Source of the DNA: an uncultured Actinomycetes bacterium
Lineage (GTDB): Bacteria > Actinomycetota > Actinomycetes > Nanopelagicales > Nanopelagicaceae
Reading direction: 5' to 3'
Assembly: GCA_903875815.1 (NCBI GenBank)
Contig: CAIQXR010000077.1
Span: forward strand, 1 to 6,222
Length of the DNA: 6,222 nucleotides
Position numbers and translations under genes: made by a program. The notes beneath the pieces are model-generated. The model was given only the letters and a program-made list of their open reading frames with translations, was not told where the DNA came from and made no database searches. Positions 1 to 6,055 of this stretch are shown here, piece after piece; position 1 is the first letter of the stretch, and each line of letters opens with the position of its first letter.

Positions 1-774
1 AACGTTTTCGCGAGAGAAGCGGCCATGAACCGAACAGTGACCGCGCCAGAGAATCATCGTTGCGTTAAGAATCTCGTGGTCGGTCAAGCCGCCGTTAGGC
101 TTCCATGGGTTCCACACCACGCACTTATCAAGGGGAATGCCCAGCAACTCGACAGCAGTGTTTCGCCCAAGGTGTTGGTCAGGAAGGAAGAGAACTTTCT
201 CAGCTCGCTCGAAAGCCCACGTAAGCGCCCGTTCAGCGTTGGATGAGGTGCAGACCGCTCCACCATTTTTACCAGTGAAGGATTTAATTGCTGCAGTCGA
301 ATTCATATAAGTAATCGGAAGAGTTTTACTCGCTACGCCTAATTCGCCCAACCGCTTCCAGCAATCTTCGACTTGATGAAGTGCGGCCATATCTGCCATC
401 GAACAACCCGCAGCCAGATCAGGCAGAATTACTTTTTGATTCACGCTCGTAAGAATGTCGGCGCTTTCGGCCATAAAGTGAACGCCGCAGAAGAAGATGA
501 ACTCTGCTTCGCGGTTATCGGCGGCAGCTTGCGCCAATTTGAAAGAGTCACCGGTGATATCGGCGAATTGGATGACTTCATCTCGCTGGTAGTGATGCCC
601 AAGAATCATGGCTCGAGAGCCCAGTGCCGCCTTTGCCGAGATCGCACGAGCCACCAGATCCGGGTCGCTCGCTGCTGGAAGTTCGCCATCGCAGGAGACG
701 CCACGCTCACTGGCAAGGTCGATGCCTGGTTGACCAGCGCCAACGAGAAGGAGTTTCTGGAGGGACATATCCAT
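1..774 (-). CDS. nadA: Quinolinate synthase NadA, partial (C-terminus beyond left window edge)
   Basis: NadA condenses iminoaspartate with dihydroxyacetone phosphate to make quinolinate for de novo NAD synthesis; it is a cytosolic [4Fe-4S] enzyme. The frame is open for 258 codons and runs off the window without a stop. Family motifs appear in order: GHHYQRDEV (about 59-67), GDSFKLA (75-81), FCGVHFMAE (95-103), AGCSMADMA (122-130), YMNSTAAIK (156-164), CTSSNA (175-180), PDQHLGRNT (198-206) and WRGHCSVHGRF (243-253). Cys124 and Cys247 match two of the three cluster ligands; the third should lie in the missing part. The WRGHCSVH form is that of the longer Bacillus/Streptomyces-type NadA (about 370-390 residues), so roughly a third is missing. 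An in-frame stop lies two codons before the ATG at 774, so the start is 774 or the ATG at 768; a TAGAAT six bases before 768 favours 768 if the mRNA is leaderless. It is divergent from the A-type carrier gene, a plausible source of its cluster. Family identity is secure. Confidence 0.96.
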   Translation of the reverse strand, partial: MDMSLQKLLLVGAGQPGIDLASERGVSCDGELPAASDPDLVARAISAKAALGSRAMILGHHYQRDEVIQFADITGDSFKLAQAAADNREAEFIFFCGVHFMAESADILTSVNQKVILPDLAAGCSMADMAALHQVEDCWKRLGELGVASKTLPITYMNSTAAIKSFTGKNGGAVCTSSNAERALTWAFERAEKVLFLPDQHLGRNTAVELLGIPLDKCVVWNPWKPNGGLTDHEILNATMILWRGHCSVHGRFSRENV

Positions 775-797: not shown

Positions 798-1175
798 ATG
801 AGCACTGAGACAACCCAAGACATCACCATTACCTCTGCGGCATCAACTGCCACAGGAATCCTTCTTACCGATGTAGCTGCTGAGAAGGTATCAGCACTCC
901 TCAAGCAAGAGGGTCGCGATGATCTCAGCCTGCGCGTTGCCGTGCAGCCAGGTGGTTGCAGTGGTCTTCGCTACCAGCTCTATTTCGATGATCGCGCACT
1001 CGATGGCGACACCGTCACTGAATTTGGTGGCGTTAAAGTCGTCACCGACAAGATGAGCACCCCTTACCTCATGGGCGCATCCATTGATTTTGTCGACACA
1101 ATCGAGAAGCAGGGTTTCACCATTGATAACCCCAACGCGCAAGGCTCATGCGCCTGCGGCGATTCCTTCAACTAA
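798..1175 (+). CDS. erpA: ErpA-like A-type iron-sulfur cluster insertion protein
   Basis: A-type carriers (HesB/IscA/SufA/ErpA) hold a Fe-S cluster and pass it to apo-enzymes in the cytosol. The 125-residue product carries the three signature cysteines, Cys54 in PGGCSG and Cys118/Cys120 in GSCACGDSF, with the family block RVAVQPGGCSGLRYQL (46-61) and DFVDTIEKQGFTIDNPNA (97-114). These match what I recall of actinobacterial ErpA-like proteins such as Rv2204c. A Ser/Thr/Ala-rich segment of about 20 residues precedes the conserved fold; it may be a real extension, since no later in-frame Met occurs before the core domain. It is divergent from nadA, a [4Fe-4S] enzyme, and is followed by adoK 72 bases later. 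A weak AT-rich stem-loop covers its stop codon. Subfamily naming (ErpA rather than IscA/SufA) rests on lineage and context; the family is certain. Confidence 0.93.
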   Translation: MSTETTQDITITSAASTATGILLTDVAAEKVSALLKQEGRDDLSLRVAVQPGGCSGLRYQLYFDDRALDGDTVTEFGGVKVVTDKMSTPYLMGASIDFVDTIEKQGFTIDNPNAQGSCACGDSFN

Positions 1176-1247: not shown

Positions 1248-2237
1248 ATGAGAATTGCTGTTGCAGGTTCAGTCGGTCGCGATCACATCATGACTTTCCC
1301 AGGAAAGTTCACGGACTCCATCGTTGAAGGTTCCCGCGACACAGTTTCGCTCTCATTTCTGGTCGATAGCCTTGACATCTACCGAGGCGGAATCGGTGCC
1401 AATATCGCATTTGGAATGGGCGCCCTTGGCCTCAACCCTATTTTGGTTGCAGCGGTAGGCAAGGATTGGGCCGATTACGATGCCTGGCTTACTCGTCATG
1501 GTGTCGACACCTCGCATGTGAAAATCTCCACTGACCTTTACACCGGCACCTTTATGGTCACCACAGATCTAGATCTCAATCAGATGGCATCTTTCTTCCC
1601 AGGTGCGATGAGCGAAGCTCGGGAAATTGAATTAGCTCCGATCATTGCGAAGACTGGCACCTTTGATTTGATCACAATTTCACCTGATGATCCCACTGCA
1701 ATGCTTCGCCACACTGAGACCGCTCGCCAACTGGGCATTGCTTTCGGCGCGGATCCTTCCCAGCAAATGGCGCGGATGGAGGGTCCAGATATTCGTTCCC
1801 TTATTACTGGTGCGAAGTACCTATTCCTTAATGAGTATGAATTAGCTCTTGCCATGCAGAAGACTGAGTGGAGTGATTCCGAATTACTCGATCAAGTGGA
1901 GATTCGGATTGTGACCCTCGGTTCTAAAGGTGTGAGAATCGAAGGTCGTTCTATTGAAACTATTGAAGTCGGCGTTCCACAGGAGAAAGCGAAAGTCGAT
2001 CCGACAGGAGTAGGCGATGCGTTTCGCTCAGGCTTCTTAGCGGGAATTTCTTGGGGCTTTGGATATGAACGCTCCGCCCAGATCGGTTCTATGTTGGCAA
2101 CGTACTGTTTAGAGACAAAAGGAACGCAGGAATACCGCTTTACTAAAGATGATTTCTTGGCACGCTTCGCTGGCGCTTATGGCGCTTCGGCAGGAGATGA
2201 AATCGCCAAGTTCATCAACCCCAATCTTGTTGGCTAG
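1248..2237 (+). CDS. adoK: Adenosine kinase, PfkB/ribokinase family
   Basis: Predicted to phosphorylate adenosine to AMP with ATP in purine salvage. The 329-residue product aligns by eye along its length with mycobacterial AdoK (Rv2202c, 324 residues): VSLSFLVDSL (33-42), YRGGIGANIAFGMGALG (45-61), ASFFPGAMSEAR (114-125), ADPSQQ (168-173), YLFLNEYE (191-198), VTLGSKGV (222-229) and the PfkB C-terminal signature DPTGVGDAFRSGF (251-263). Asp257 in that motif is the expected catalytic base, and the GVGD glycines form the anion hole. The start at 1248 gives MRIAVAGSVGRDHI, matching the family N-terminus; no Shine-Dalgarno precedes it, but TTTAAT lies seven bases upstream. It follows erpA and converges on the TusA-like gene with a 4-base overlap. 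From memory, adoK lies close to ctaC in mycobacteria and streptomycetes. Another sugar or nucleoside substrate cannot be excluded from sequence alone. Confidence 0.9.
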   Translation: MRIAVAGSVGRDHIMTFPGKFTDSIVEGSRDTVSLSFLVDSLDIYRGGIGANIAFGMGALGLNPILVAAVGKDWADYDAWLTRHGVDTSHVKISTDLYTGTFMVTTDLDLNQMASFFPGAMSEAREIELAPIIAKTGTFDLITISPDDPTAMLRHTETARQLGIAFGADPSQQMARMEGPDIRSLITGAKYLFLNEYELALAMQKTEWSDSELLDQVEIRIVTLGSKGVRIEGRSIETIEVGVPQEKAKVDPTGVGDAFRSGFLAGISWGFGYERSAQIGSMLATYCLETKGTQEYRFTKDDFLARFAGAYGASAGDEIAKFINPNLVG

Positions 2238-2464
2238 CTAATTCTGCGCACTCGGTAGCGCTGGGGTGCTATTTCTTCTGCGAATTGATTTCGCATTCTC
2301 GCCCACGCAGCAAGGTCAGGCTTAGTTGCGGGGTCATCGCTGAGCAGGATCAACTCTTCGCCGATTTCCATATCTTTTAGTTTTTGAGCGGTTTTAATAA
2401 TCGGTATGGGACAACGCATGCCCCGACAATCAAGGGCGTCACTTTCGTTAAGCGGATTGATCAC
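2234..2464 (-). CDS. TusA-family sulfur carrier protein
   Basis: TusA/SirA-like proteins are small cytosolic carriers that accept a persulfide on a conserved cysteine, usually from a cysteine desulfurase. This 76-residue product has the family signature LDCRGMRCPIPII (11-23), with Cys18 in CPIP as the expected carrier residue, then a LILLSDDPATKPDLAAW segment (38-54) typical of the beta-alpha-beta fold. The start is GTG: its first three bases plus the next one form GTGA with the TGA of the upstream desulfurase-like gene, so translational coupling is likely, and no separate Shine-Dalgarno is evident. The stop lies inside a CTAG that also contains the adoK stop on the other strand. As I recall, many Actinobacteria encode this domain fused to the C-terminus of the neighbouring desulfurase; here they are separate polypeptides. 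Whether it acts in tRNA thiolation, cofactor synthesis or another route is unknown. Confidence 0.9.
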   Translation of the reverse strand: MINPLNESDALDCRGMRCPIPIIKTAQKLKDMEIGEELILLSDDPATKPDLAAWARMRNQFAEEIAPQRYRVRRIS

Positions 2465-3567
2465 GATCGTTGCGCGTTAACGCACTCTTTCAGTGCTAAG
2501 AGTAAGAGATCGACATCTTCTGGCAGGAGATTGTGTTTCAGAGTTAAGCGAATATTTCCTTGCGTCAATCGACCCATTGCGGCCAAGACATGGCTCGGTT
2601 CTAAATTGGTGGAGTTGCAGGCTGATCCGGAATCAACAGCCACACCTCGTGCCGCTAAATCATGAACCAATTTCTCGGCATCAACAAAGAGGAAACTGAA
2701 GGAGAGGAGATGATCGCTAGCATCGGCAGGGGAGGCGATATCAACATCACCAATCTCCTCTGTGATGTAGCCACGAATCCGTGCATTGGCTTGAGCAATT
2801 TTTAGTGCTTGACTCTTTTCGTCGGCTACCCAACTATCGATGGAGAGAGCGCTCAGAATAATTAAGGCCGGAGAGACTCCTTCAGGAGTAAGACGATTAT
2901 TGAGATGAGGGAGCGGATTTCGCCAAGCAGATCCCTCGCGTCTAGCAAAAACTGTCAGACCAGATGGCCCGCCCCAACTCCGTGAATCCCAGAGCGCAGT
3001 ACTCCAATTCGAAGGCAGGGGAATTCGGACGCCACTCGCCGTGGCATCGTAGAAAATTGGCACTGAATCAGTTTGGGGTGCTGGGTTTATGCCACCGGTT
3101 TCACCATTCATGAGTTGCCAGGCAATGACTTGGCGACCCCGATTGCTCGGCTCGTTAATCGTTGGAGACGCCGAAGCTATCTCGCTTGGCCATGAAATGT
3201 GGCCATCCAAGTCCACTTCGAGAATTTCGTTGACACCCCCGCGAGCCTGGTGATGCGCTGCCACTGCAAAGAGGTCCTGACGGTCGATCGCGCTATGGAT
3301 CAGTCGCGATTCAGGGGTAAGCAGCCCGGAAAGGGCGATATGAAAGCCGGAGGAGTGGTCGCCGAGAAAACCCAGTTCGGCGGGGCGAACTCCGAGATGG
3401 CCAGCAAGGGTTTCGGTGGCCTCATGGAGAAGGATTGATGCCGATCGAGAGTCATCACCCAGTTTTGCCGGATCAGGCCACGATTGCTCAAAAACGCTCG
3501 GCAGAGCCAGTTTTGCCCCCGGATGAAGAGGGGATTCGGACTGGAAATGTGAGGTGATGGAAACCAC
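2461..3567 (-). CDS. Cysteine desulfurase-like (class V aminotransferase fold) protein lacking the PLP lysine
   Basis: NifS/IscS-type desulfurases use PLP to move sulfur from cysteine onto a loop cysteine. The 368-residue product keeps the fold's landmarks: SPLHP (12-16), SWPDPAKL (29-36), MNGETG (153-158), FYDATASG (172-179), SWGGPSG (197-203), SGSACNS (313-319, Cys317) and LEPSHVLAAMG (322-332). The PLP lysine, expected just before the GGP motif (HKxGGP), is Ser197 (codon AGT, 2977-2979). No lysine occurs between residues 36 and 250. The histidine that normally stacks on PLP is Arg96, and the Gln of DATQS is Ala. The frame is intact, so this is not a decayed gene. The open frame extends upstream to 3810, but that part is antisense to ctaC. 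GTG at 3567 puts the family start in place; a TAGCCT lies seven bases upstream. It overlaps the TusA-like gene by GTGA, suggesting one operon. Classical desulfurase activity is doubtful. Confidence 0.85.
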   Translation of the reverse strand: MVSITSHFQSESPLHPGAKLALPSVFEQSWPDPAKLGDDSRSASILLHEATETLAGHLGVRPAELGFLGDHSSGFHIALSGLLTPESRLIHSAIDRQDLFAVAAHHQARGGVNEILEVDLDGHISWPSEIASASPTINEPSNRGRQVIAWQLMNGETGGINPAPQTDSVPIFYDATASGVRIPLPSNWSTALWDSRSWGGPSGLTVFARREGSAWRNPLPHLNNRLTPEGVSPALIILSALSIDSWVADEKSQALKIAQANARIRGYITEEIGDVDIASPADASDHLLSFSFLFVDAEKLVHDLAARGVAVDSGSACNSTNLEPSHVLAAMGRLTQGNIRLTLKHNLLPEDVDLLLLALKECVNAQRS

Positions 3568-3594
3568 CCGCCGAAGGCTACCCCTAGCGGGTGG
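3564..3594. promoter_or_regulatory. 8-bp inverted repeat between the desulfurase-like gene and ctaC
   Basis: CCACCCGC (3564-3571) and GCGGGTGG (3587-3594) are perfect reverse complements separated by 15 bases. They occupy much of the 58-base divergent gap, and the left arm contains the GTG start codon of the desulfurase-like gene. In its mRNA (if a leader exists) the arms would form a GC-rich hairpin, with an AGGGG in the loop and the start codon in the 3' arm. As DNA it could equally be a dimer operator serving both divergent genes. The repeat is seen; either role is inferred. Confidence 0.45.
3575..3580 (-). promoter_or_regulatory. Candidate -10 element for the desulfurase-like/TusA-like operon
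   Basis: On the minus strand TAGCCT (TANNNT) is followed by seven bases and the GTG start at 3567, which would give a leaderless transcript. It lies in the spacer of the 8-bp inverted repeat. An alternative, TTTAAT on the minus strand at 3636-3631, would start RNA near 3624 and give a leader of nearly 60 bases containing the hairpin. Confidence 0.3.
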
Positions 3595-3613
3595 GAGAAG
3601 CGAGCGCGCCCGA

Positions 3614-3619
3614 TATTCT
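3614..3619 (+). promoter_or_regulatory. Candidate -10 element for the ctaCDF operon (leaderless)
   Basis: TATTCT fits TANNNT (4/6 to TATAAT) and ends six bases before the ctaC ATG at 3626. The intervening bases (TCACCC) contain no Shine-Dalgarno. No -35 hexamer stands out in the G-rich region upstream. The position suits a transcript beginning at the start codon. Confidence 0.4.
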
Positions 3620-3625
3620 TCACCC

Positions 3626-4378
3626 ATGCAATTAAAGCGCGCTCTGAGCACTGCCGTTCTGGCAGCTGGTGGTCTAGCCACCTTGACCTCATGTTCTTCT
3701 TCCAAAGTTTCGGGAATGGGTTTTCCTAAAGGCGTCTCCAGTGTCAATGACACCTCGCTCCCACTCTGGCAAGGCGCATGGATTACAGCGGGCGTTGTCG
3801 GCGTCTTCACCGCAGTGCTTATTTTGTGGCCAGTTTTCCGCCATCGTAAAAAGAAGAATGGACCGGAATTTCCTAAGCAGACTCGTTATAACGTTCCGAC
3901 TGAAGTCGCTTACACACTTATTCCATTCCTCATCGTCGCCGTTCTTTTCTACTTCACCGCTCGGGATGAATCTCGTGTAACGAAAATATCTGCGCCTGGT
4001 GTTGTTTCGCACGTCATCGACGTCAATGCGATTCAATGGTCTTGGCAATTTACTTACCAAGATGCACCTGCGCATCCCACCATCACTGGCACACCTGCCC
4101 AGCGACCTACGCTTGTTCTTCCACAAGGGGAGCGAGTTCGCTTTAATCTCACCGCATCAGATGTTGATCACGGTTTCTGGATTCCAGCCTTCATGATTCA
4201 AATGCAGAATCTTCCAGGCGTTACCAATCACTTGGAATTCACTGCGAACAAGTTGGGCGAGTTCCCTGGTCGATGCAACATTCTCTGCGGCCGCGACCAC
4301 TCACTCATGCTCTTTACTGTAAAAGTGGTAACTCCAGCCGAGTACCAAAGTTATATCTCCTCACTTAAGGTGGCGTAA
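3626..4378 (+). CDS. ctaC: Cytochrome c oxidase subunit II (CtaC), CuA-binding lipoprotein
   Basis: Subunit II of the aa3 oxidase takes electrons from cytochrome c (in Actinobacteria a bc1-bound diheme c) through the CuA centre outside the membrane. Starting at 3626, the 250-residue product begins MQLKR, then a hydrophobic stretch and lipobox LTSC (20-23), so Cys23 should be lipidated. This, not the longer frame from 3554, fixes the start. Two membrane helices lie at about 51-71 and 93-111. The electron-entry motif QWSWQF is at 137-142. CuA ligands are all present: His182, Cys217, Cys221, His225 and Met228. Odd points: the residue between the CuA cysteines that is normally Glu (CxExC) is Ile219, and the protein is much shorter than mycobacterial CtaC (about 360 residues, from memory), with little between QWSWQFTY and the next beta strand. 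It is followed three bases later by ctaD. Confidence 0.96.
   Translation: MQLKRALSTAVLAAGGLATLTSCSSSKVSGMGFPKGVSSVNDTSLPLWQGAWITAGVVGVFTAVLILWPVFRHRKKKNGPEFPKQTRYNVPTEVAYTLIPFLIVAVLFYFTARDESRVTKISAPGVVSHVIDVNAIQWSWQFTYQDAPAHPTITGTPAQRPTLVLPQGERVRFNLTASDVDHGFWIPAFMIQMQNLPGVTNHLEFTANKLGEFPGRCNILCGRDHSLMLFTVKVVTPAEYQSYISSLKVA
4367..4373 (+). promoter_or_regulatory. Ribosome binding site of ctaD
   Basis: AAGGTGG inside the last codons of ctaC lies eight bases before the ctaD ATG at 4382. It is a good near-match to AGGAGG and supports this start. It contrasts with the first genes of the transcription units here, which lack such a site at normal distance. Confidence 0.7.
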
Positions 4379-4381
4379 TCG

Positions 4382-6055
4382 ATGACTACTTATGCAGAGC
4401 GCGTAGCGCCTACAACTCCAGCAGGTTCTCGTCCTTACAAGGAGAGCAAAGGCAGACTATTCGTTAAGTGGGTAACCTCAACTGATCACAAGACGATCGG
4501 TTACATGTATTTGATGACCTCATTTGCGTGGTTCTTGATCGCCGGAATTTTGGCGCTCTTGCTCCGCGCAGAACTTGCTCGTCCAGGCCTGCAGTTCCTC
4601 AGCAACGAGCAGTACAACCAGATCTTCACCATGCACGGAACGATCATGCTCTTGATGTTTGCTACGCCGCTCTTTGTTGGTTTCGCAAACGTCATCATGC
4701 CGCTGCAGATCGGTGCAGCAGACGTTGCCTTCCCTCGCTTGAACATGCTTTCATACTGGCTCTACCTCTTCGGCGGCCTTATGGCTTTCGGTGGATTCTT
4801 ATCTCCAGGTGGCGCTGCATCATTTGGTTGGACTGCCTACGCACCACTCGCTAATTCACAATACTCACCAGGAATCGGTGGCGATCTCTGGGTTATTGGT
4901 TTAGCAATTTCCGGTATCGGAACCATTCTTGGCGGCGTCAACTTCATCACCACGATCTTCACCATGCGCGCGCCTGGCATGACGATGTTCCGCATGTCGA
5001 TCTTTAGCTGGAACGTTCTCCTTACTTCGATTCTCGTTCTGCTCGCATTCCCGCCACTGGCAGCAGCTTTCCTTGGATTGGAATCAGATCGACTCTTCGG
5101 GTCGCACCTCTTTGATCCAGCCAATGGTGGCGCGATGCTTTGGCAACACCTCTTCTGGTTCTTTGGACACCCTGAGGTTTACATTCTTGCATTGCCGTTC
5201 TTCGGTATCGCAACCGAGATCCTTCCGGTCTTTAGCCGCAAGCCAGTCTTTGGTTACAAGGGTTTGATCGCCGCGACCATCGGCATTGCTGCGCTCTCTG
5301 TCTCTGTTTGGGCGCACCACATGTTCGCATCTGGTCAGGTTCTCTTGCCGTTCTTCTCCTTCATGACATTCCTTATTGGCGTGCCAACCGGCGTGAAGTT
5401 CTTTAACTGGATCGGAACAATGTGGCGTGGTCACGTTTCCTTCGAGACTCCGATGCTCTGGGTAATGGGCTTTTTGATCACCTTCCTCTTCGGCGGATTA
5501 ACGGGCATCATTCTCGCTAGCCCTCCGATGGACTTCGCGGTTTCTGCTTCATACTTTGTCGTCGCTCACTTCCACTACGTCCTCTTCGGAACTGTGGTCT
5601 TTGCAATGTTCGCCGGTTTCTATTTCTGGTGGCCGAAGATGACCGGACATATGCTCAATGAGCGCCTTGGAAAGATCCACTTCTGGACTCTCTTCTTCGG
5701 TTTCCACCTCACCTTCTTGATCCAGCACTGGTTGGGAATTAAGGGAATGCCACGTCGCTACGCCGATTATTTGGCAACCGATGGCTTTACAACGATGAAT
5801 ACGATTTCAACAATCGGTTCATTCCTCTTGGCGCTTTCGATGATTCCATTCTTCATTAACGTCTGGATTAGTCGTAAATCGCCTAAGGTCACCGTTGATG
5901 ATCCGTGGGGTTACGGAGCTTCTTTGGAGTGGGCGACATCGTGCCCTCCTCCTCGCCACAACTTCCTATCTATGCCACGCATTCGTTCCGAGCGTCCGGC
6001 ATTTGATCTCCACTACCCACATATGGCACACACAGATCTCGATGGGAGCCACTAA
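4382..6055 (+). CDS. ctaD: Cytochrome c oxidase subunit I (CtaD), heme-copper aa3 type
   Basis: Subunit I reduces O2 to water at the heme a3-CuB centre and pumps protons across the cytoplasmic membrane. The 557-residue product is full length for actinobacterial CtaD and 12 membrane helices are expected. By homology, heme a ligands are His85 (MHGT) and His398, the heme a3 ligand is His396 (AHFHYV), CuB ligands are His263, His312 and His313 (GHPEVY, WAHHMF), and Tyr267 is the cross-linked tyrosine. D-pathway Asp114 (GAADVAFPR) and Glu265, and K-pathway Lys339 (PTGVKFF), make it an A1-type pump. Arg458/Arg459 (GMPRRY) bind heme propionates. The C-terminus ([13 protein letters not shown], then [15 protein letters not shown]) is typically actinobacterial. 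Odd point: the segment before AHFHYV reads DFAVSASYF, so the usual Mg-site Asp is Ala389. It is co-transcribed with ctaC (3-base gap) and abuts ctaF. Confidence 0.98.
6044..6048 (+). promoter_or_regulatory. Ribosome binding site of ctaF
   Basis: GGGAG within the last codons of ctaD lies seven bases before the ATG at 6056. It supports that start, which directly follows the ctaD stop as TAAATG. Confidence 0.6.

Follow-up and report, generated by a model that had tools for sequence, protein, structure and literature searches.

A desulfurase homologue without its catalytic lysine

The window analysed here is the whole 6,222-nucleotide contig CAIQXR010000077.1 (assembly GCA_903875815.1) of an uncultured Actinomycetes bacterium of the order Nanopelagicales. 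Between a pfkB/tusA pair and the cytochrome oxidase gene ctaC, it encodes a homologue of class I cysteine desulfurases in which Ser197 stands at the position of the lysine that forms the Schiff base with pyridoxal 5'-phosphate (PLP), while the sulfur-loop cysteine, Cys317, is kept (Table 1). The original prediction of an intact desulfurase homologue held on translation: the frame lies on the minus strand at the coordinates claimed, its 368 codons hold no internal stop, and the replacements Ser197, Arg96 and Ala177 and the retained Asp174, Asn154 and Cys317 were all recovered. Its claim that no lysine lies between residues 36 and 250 was also right; the protein's only lysines are at positions 19, 35, 251, 256, 299, 344 and 360, of which 35 and 251 border that interval.

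Ser197 is encoded by AGT, two base changes away from either lysine codon. The lysine is not the only loss. Thr76 of IscS is its phosphate-cup threonine, and the stretch that carries this threonine in relatives reads FLGDHSSGFH in the window protein, without a threonine. Compared with E. coli IscS, whose complex with TusA has been solved (PDB 3lvj), the window protein has thus lost the counterparts of Lys206, His104, Gln183 and Thr76, and across its order the stacking His, the Gln and the phosphate-cup Thr have likewise gone along with the lysine. The roles of the IscS residues other than Thr76 are taken here from PMC9978102, which calls His104, Asp180, Gln183, Lys206 and Cys328 indispensable for activity. 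Because Lys, His, Gln and Thr are lost together, and given the residues that PMC9978102 calls indispensable, we judge from the sequence that cysteine desulfuration by the window protein is very unlikely.

Table 1. Genes and diagnostic codons of the window.
Feature	Position	Strand	Remark
Lysine-less class I cysteine desulfurase homologue, 368 aa	2461..3567	-	GTG start at 3567 presumed
Ser197 codon (AGT)	2977..2979	-	PLP-lysine position (E. coli IscS Lys206)
Arg96 codon	3280..3282	-	Position of PLP-stacking His (IscS His104)
Ala177 codon	3037..3039	-	Position of IscS Gln183
Asp174 codon	3046..3048	-	IscS Asp180, kept
Asn154 to Glu156 codons	3100..3108	-	IscS Asn155 and Glu156, both kept
Cys317 codon	2617..2619	-	Sulfur-loop cysteine (SGSAC)
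Arg340 codon	2548..2550	-	Counterpart of IscS carboxylate-binding Arg354 by alignment, kept
TusA-family sulfur carrier, 76 aa	2234..2464	-	4-base overlap with the stop of the desulfurase homologue
PfkB-family kinase	1248..2237	+	Conserved flanking gene
ErpA-type iron-sulfur insertion protein	798..1175	+	Flanking gene
NadA (quinolinate synthase)	1..774	-	Truncated at window end
CtaC, cytochrome oxidase subunit II	3626..4378	+	Divergent from desulfurase homologue
CtaD, cytochrome oxidase subunit I	4382..6055	+	

The predicted coupling to a TusA-family gene was borne out by the overlap of the two frames and by the PF01206 match of the smaller one (62.1 bits against a cut-off of 28.6), whose translation carries the Cys-Pro motif CPIP. 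The exact start of the desulfurase homologue is unsure, because the reading frame extends beyond it without a stop (3567-3885, minus strand, with a GTG at 3810), where it overlaps the ctaC start on the opposite strand. The relatives P0007, P0015 and P0040 have similar N-terminal extensions that include a GxEY stretch.

The lysine is missing across an order and in several other groups

We read the lysine column (column 197) and the loop cysteine in three samples. The closest-sequence set (n=120) comprised the query and 119 of the best 120 listed among 893 matches; entry P0003, with three members clustered at 90% identity, is the window's own, constitutes no independent proof and was left out. 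Column 197 held Ser in 88 of these sequences, Thr in 17, Ala in 12, Asn in 2 and Ile in 1; with lysine in 0 of the 120, query included, chance was ruled out as the source of the pattern. Cys317 was present in all 119 readable rows.

From the window's order, 154 of 201 drawn genomes gave a match, and about 102 of these 154 were read. The resulting 114 rows include the window, contigs of its closest relatives and some fragments; membership of the order means recovery in this draw, and the window itself was placed by its 86% identity to L001. None of the 110 readable order rows has the lysine, and Cys317 is present in 111 of 112 readable rows, the exception being L015. The cysteine loop of L015 is unreadable, with undetermined bases that mark an assembly gap.

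For the class, an even draw of 296 genomes gave 177 bearers of the gene (E ≤1e-35), and every one of them was read. The 23 genomes from the window's order uniformly lack the lysine. Outside the order it is found in 133 of 154 orthologues and absent from 21, and Cys317 is present in all 154. The families of genomes G254 and G255 lack the lysine and have the cysteine in 60/60 best-scoring rows (the best-scoring 30 loci each, out of 39 and 54 matching genomes, respectively; 10 of the 60 are also counted among the 21). Lysine-less rows include Isoptericola halotolerans (L236, family of G255), Angustibacter luteus (L103) and Angustibacter sp. Root456 (L116), and the lysine is absent in larger genomes as well (G255, 4.0 megabases (Mb); G165, 4.2 Mb).

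These counts contradict the earlier suggestion that the loss might be recent and lineage-specific: the absence is order-wide and extends to several other groups, and a recent loss is ruled out accordingly. The accompanying statement that streptomycete homologues keep the lysine was correct for Streptomyces-named homologues. Of 120 listed rows, 108 have K, and no Streptomyces name occurs among the other 12.

Several side observations concern these samples. In L301 and L302 (family of G254), the Asp that binds the pyridine nitrogen of PLP is replaced by His in addition to the loss of the lysine, and the loop cysteine is kept. L004 and L009 carry titles of Bifidobacterium breve metagenome-assembled genomes, yet have the same locus and neighbours and 51-53% identity to the window protein; these titles look like misassignments. 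Seven stretches of viral contigs matched a pattern, none of them coding for a relative. Seven duplicates (L047, L118, L121, L124, L127, L186 and L192) were set aside.

Orthology and the number of losses

The window protein is an ortholog of lysine-bearing actinobacterial desulfurases that occupy the same ctaC/pfkB locus in the same orientation. Of 87 loci, 83 have ctaC near the desulfurase homologue; among the four that do not, one is cut by a contig end and begins within the gene. The lysine-bearing proteins belong to the family that NCBI names 'cysteine desulfurase/sulfurtransferase TusA family protein' (for example, in Streptomyces), which is also the family of the window protein; their loci neighbour ctaC, TusA being either next to them or part of the same frame, and they keep the Lys and mostly the His and phosphate-cup Thr that the window protein lacks.

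The order rows formed one clade in all three trees (support 99 in FastTree, 100/100 in the second tree and 100/96 in the best-sampled tree). The best-sampled tree joined the order to lysine-less rows of the Isoptericola family, Angustibacter and two other rows with support 97/87, and a similar order-plus-lysine-less group appeared in the second tree at 87/88, whereas FastTree put the order elsewhere, away from the Isoptericola-family and Angustibacter rows. Because of this grouping, the order's loss of the lysine may predate the order. Parsimony counted 6 changes of lysine state on FastTree and on the second tree and 7 on the best-sampled tree, which suggests that the lysine was lost repeatedly. 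Approximately unbiased (AU) tests nonetheless did not reject a tree in which every lysine-less row falls into one clade (p 0.282 and 0.227), and for that reason we claim no number of losses. Long branches occur, and the bootstraps had not converged; L304 was too short and was left out of FastTree.

Selection keeps the loop cysteine and releases the lysine position

Conservation was computed for 337 alignment columns in 185 rows that lack the lysine, with nine duplicates of the G254 family and one of the G255 family set aside. The nine best-kept columns (98.9-100%) are V327, G158, E156, C317, G314, S325, N154, S315 and R340, and D174 is kept at 96.7%. Column 197, at 45%, equals the median column. 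The lysine position therefore drifts freely and the loop cysteine does not.

The lysine-less homologue is under purifying selection, as the original prediction had argued. The ratio of nonsynonymous to synonymous substitution rates (dN/dS) was 0.04-0.31 in 17 pairs, of which five, the window pair included, are saturated at dS >2 so that their ratios are only rough; a further, eighteenth pair showed no differences and so yielded no ratio. With that caution on saturated dS, the open frames and dN/dS values rule out a pseudogene.

The related genomes hold ordinary desulfurases elsewhere. Canonical IscS was found in 114 of 118 class genomes, and Lys, His and Cys were kept in 50/50 of the paralogues read, a control that may favour conserved copies as it consists of the 30 best-scoring of the 114 genomes and 20 of the G254 family. 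SufS-like copies gave a strong match in 7/7 genomes, and the three that were read have the lysine.

Relation to known desulfurases

The window protein has the fold type I / class V aminotransferase fold of IscS, and among PDB entries both sequence comparison and Foldseek rank the lysine-bearing IscS of Mycobacterium tuberculosis (PDB 4isy) highest, an IscS of the kind that related actinobacterial genomes hold separately. Of the features that define the enzyme, it has the mobile-loop cysteine in SGSAC (Cys317) and lacks the Schiff-base lysine (Ser197), the stacking His (Arg96), the Gln (Ala177) and the phosphate-cup Thr. It falls far below the NCBIfam equivalog cut-offs for NifS (71.3 against 530.75 bits) and IscS (41.7 against 643.2 bits). 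By descent, its position between pfkB/TusA and ctaC and its sequence orthology place it in the ctaC-linked desulfurase/TusA family.

Lysine-less IscS proteins are known from two archaea, as Archaeoglobus fulgidus IscS and Methanosarcina acetivorans IscS1, and PMC7585200, which describes them, presents a lysine-less IscS as useful in providing a cysteine ligand for the cluster on IscU. The combination found in A. fulgidus IscS (PDB 4eb5, 4eb7 and 4hvk; D199K mutant 4r5f), no lysine with a loop cysteine present, is also found in the window protein. The two differ in other respects. A. fulgidus IscS has Asp at the lysine site and works with IscU, whereas the actinobacterial proteins sit at an oxidase locus, carry Ser, Thr, Ala, Asp and other residues at the site, share ~20% identity with it and neighbour TusA or no carrier rather than IscU. 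No IscU-like partner was found among the seven window proteins scanned, the rest of the genome not having been searched for IscU. We found no description of a lysine-less ctaC-linked family in the literature searched, which did not cover most subscription journals.

A proposed sulfur-loop function and the evidence against it

We consider it about an even bet that the window protein is an old, conserved pseudo-desulfurase that acts through its cysteine loop, like A. fulgidus IscS. Such a protein would no longer form an internal aldimine and would desulfurate cysteine at no useful rate. Cys317 would probably be the working residue, accepting or holding persulfide sulfur from the separate IscS or SufS of the cell; alternatively, it might be offered as a cysteine ligand to a nascent iron-sulfur (Fe-S) cluster. 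TusA would be one acceptor where present and would not be required. A link to cytochrome oxidase has synteny as its sole basis. The broader proposition, that the ctaC-linked desulfurase of Actinomycetes repeatedly turned into a PLP-free sulfur-loop protein, with the lysine freed several times and the loop cysteine and substrate-carboxylate residues fixed as long as a genome retains the gene, we put forward tentatively, as slightly less likely than not.

Several observations weigh against a role through the cysteine loop. The loop itself is poorly predicted, with predicted local distance difference test (pLDDT) scores <50 at residues 315-321, as also in the loop 24-39, and its motif is more variable than C317, with A316 kept at 93.4% and S313 changed to Ala in the order. 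The pocket residues Asn, Glu, Asp and Arg are kept, so that a bound substrate or PLP-substrate adduct is possible rather than a pure relay, and PMC9978102 reports that IscS K206A keeps a very slow reaction. TusA, the obvious acceptor candidate, is often absent. In the flanks fetched for the class draw, it lies beside 126/133 lysine-bearing copies and 16/21 lysine-less copies outside the order, and beside only 8 of the 23 order copies. The remaining 15 order genomes had no TusA match genome-wide (0/15) and keep the lysine-less protein (TusA-free loci L050, L051, L053, L057-L067 and L069). Finally, the desulfurase homologue is dispensable, being cleanly missing from some order genomes.

This last point comes from the 47 order genomes without a match, 20 of which were checked. 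All 20 have ctaC; pfkB lies directly beside ctaC in 19, and the locus of the twentieth ends at a contig end. With 13 order proteins and TusA as queries, tblastn detected no gene remnant at E 0.1 in these 20 loci and matched 5/5 positive-control loci. The empty sites make a series within one order (L416-L433 and L435), in which the desulfurase homologue and tusA are cleanly gone and pfkB abuts ctaC.

Together, the empty sites and the TusA-free bearers imply that the protein is not essential and that TusA is not the sole reason for keeping it. TusA as an obligatory partner is ruled out for the 15 order genomes without any TusA match, which weakens the earlier proposal of a scaffold for TusA as a general role. 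Some form of relay or scaffold is still plausible. The loss of TusA is not tied to that of the lysine either, because two lysine-bearing genomes (G103 and G011) likewise have no TusA match genome-wide.

Alternative explanations

Stepwise erosion is the main evolutionary rival. Under this explanation, the protein is an intermediate in streamlining genomes, which lose first the lysine, then TusA and then the gene, and what remains serves a minor structural or binding role unrelated to sulfur. The remnant-free junctions of pfkB and ctaC in 19 of 20 no-match genomes and the division of order loci into 8 with and 15 without TusA are what erosion would leave behind, and lysine-less rows make up 11 of the 12 named long end branches in FastTree. 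However, a non-sulfur role does not explain why Cys317 and adjacent residues rank with the most strongly conserved positions, dN/dS is well under 1, and the larger genomes of G255 and G165 lack the lysine too. We regard erosion as unlikely, though it deserves serious weight, at perhaps one chance in four.

The main chemical rival is lysine-independent PLP chemistry, in which a preformed PLP-cysteine external aldimine would be held by Asp174, Asn154 and Arg340 and would react slowly or with another substrate. The conserved pocket would suit such an enzyme, half of the lysine-less rows that are readable outside the order (10 of 20) retain His at column 96, and, according to PMC9978102, PLP and cysteine react without any enzyme and IscS K206A reacts at a very low rate. 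The same source lists His104, Asp180, Gln183, Lys206 and Cys328 among the residues IscS cannot do without, and members of the window's order also have other residues at the positions of His104, Gln183 and Thr76. We consider this explanation improbable, more so than erosion.

Far less probable still is a rescue by Lys35, which would fill the pocket in place of the lost lysine from the loop 24-39. Lys35, the basic residue of a WxDP loop, occurs in 95 of the 105 order rows readable there, and, given the low confidence of the predicted loop, it might reach the pocket. Yet Arg occupies this position in 129/129 readable lysine-bearing relatives and in 17/21 lysine-less copies outside the order; residue 35 is thus an old basic position rather than a rescue. 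An artefact has practically no chance: a sequencing error, which the original prediction had named as a possible refutation, and specifically a single-base error as the source of Ser197, is ruled out by the two-base codon difference and the lack of the lysine in all 110 readable order rows, and a misaligned lysine column by the flanking GP and Trp positions, which line up in nearly all rows.

Implications

The protein probably does something other than the textbook desulfurase reaction. Its lysine-less state is lineage-wide in actinobacteria, and orthologues that bear the lysine occupy the same locus and can be compared with it. Whether the cysteine loop by itself suffices for some function of the desulfurase fold can thereby be tested. 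The lysine-less state also serves as a warning that proteins filed as 'cysteine desulfurase' in such genomes may not be cysteine desulfurases. If a role through the loop cysteine is true, these proteins would form a class of their own: pseudo-desulfurases that do not desulfurate cysteine but deal with sulfur or Fe-S clusters. Such a class would span a freshwater bacterial order and cultured genera such as Isoptericola and Angustibacter.
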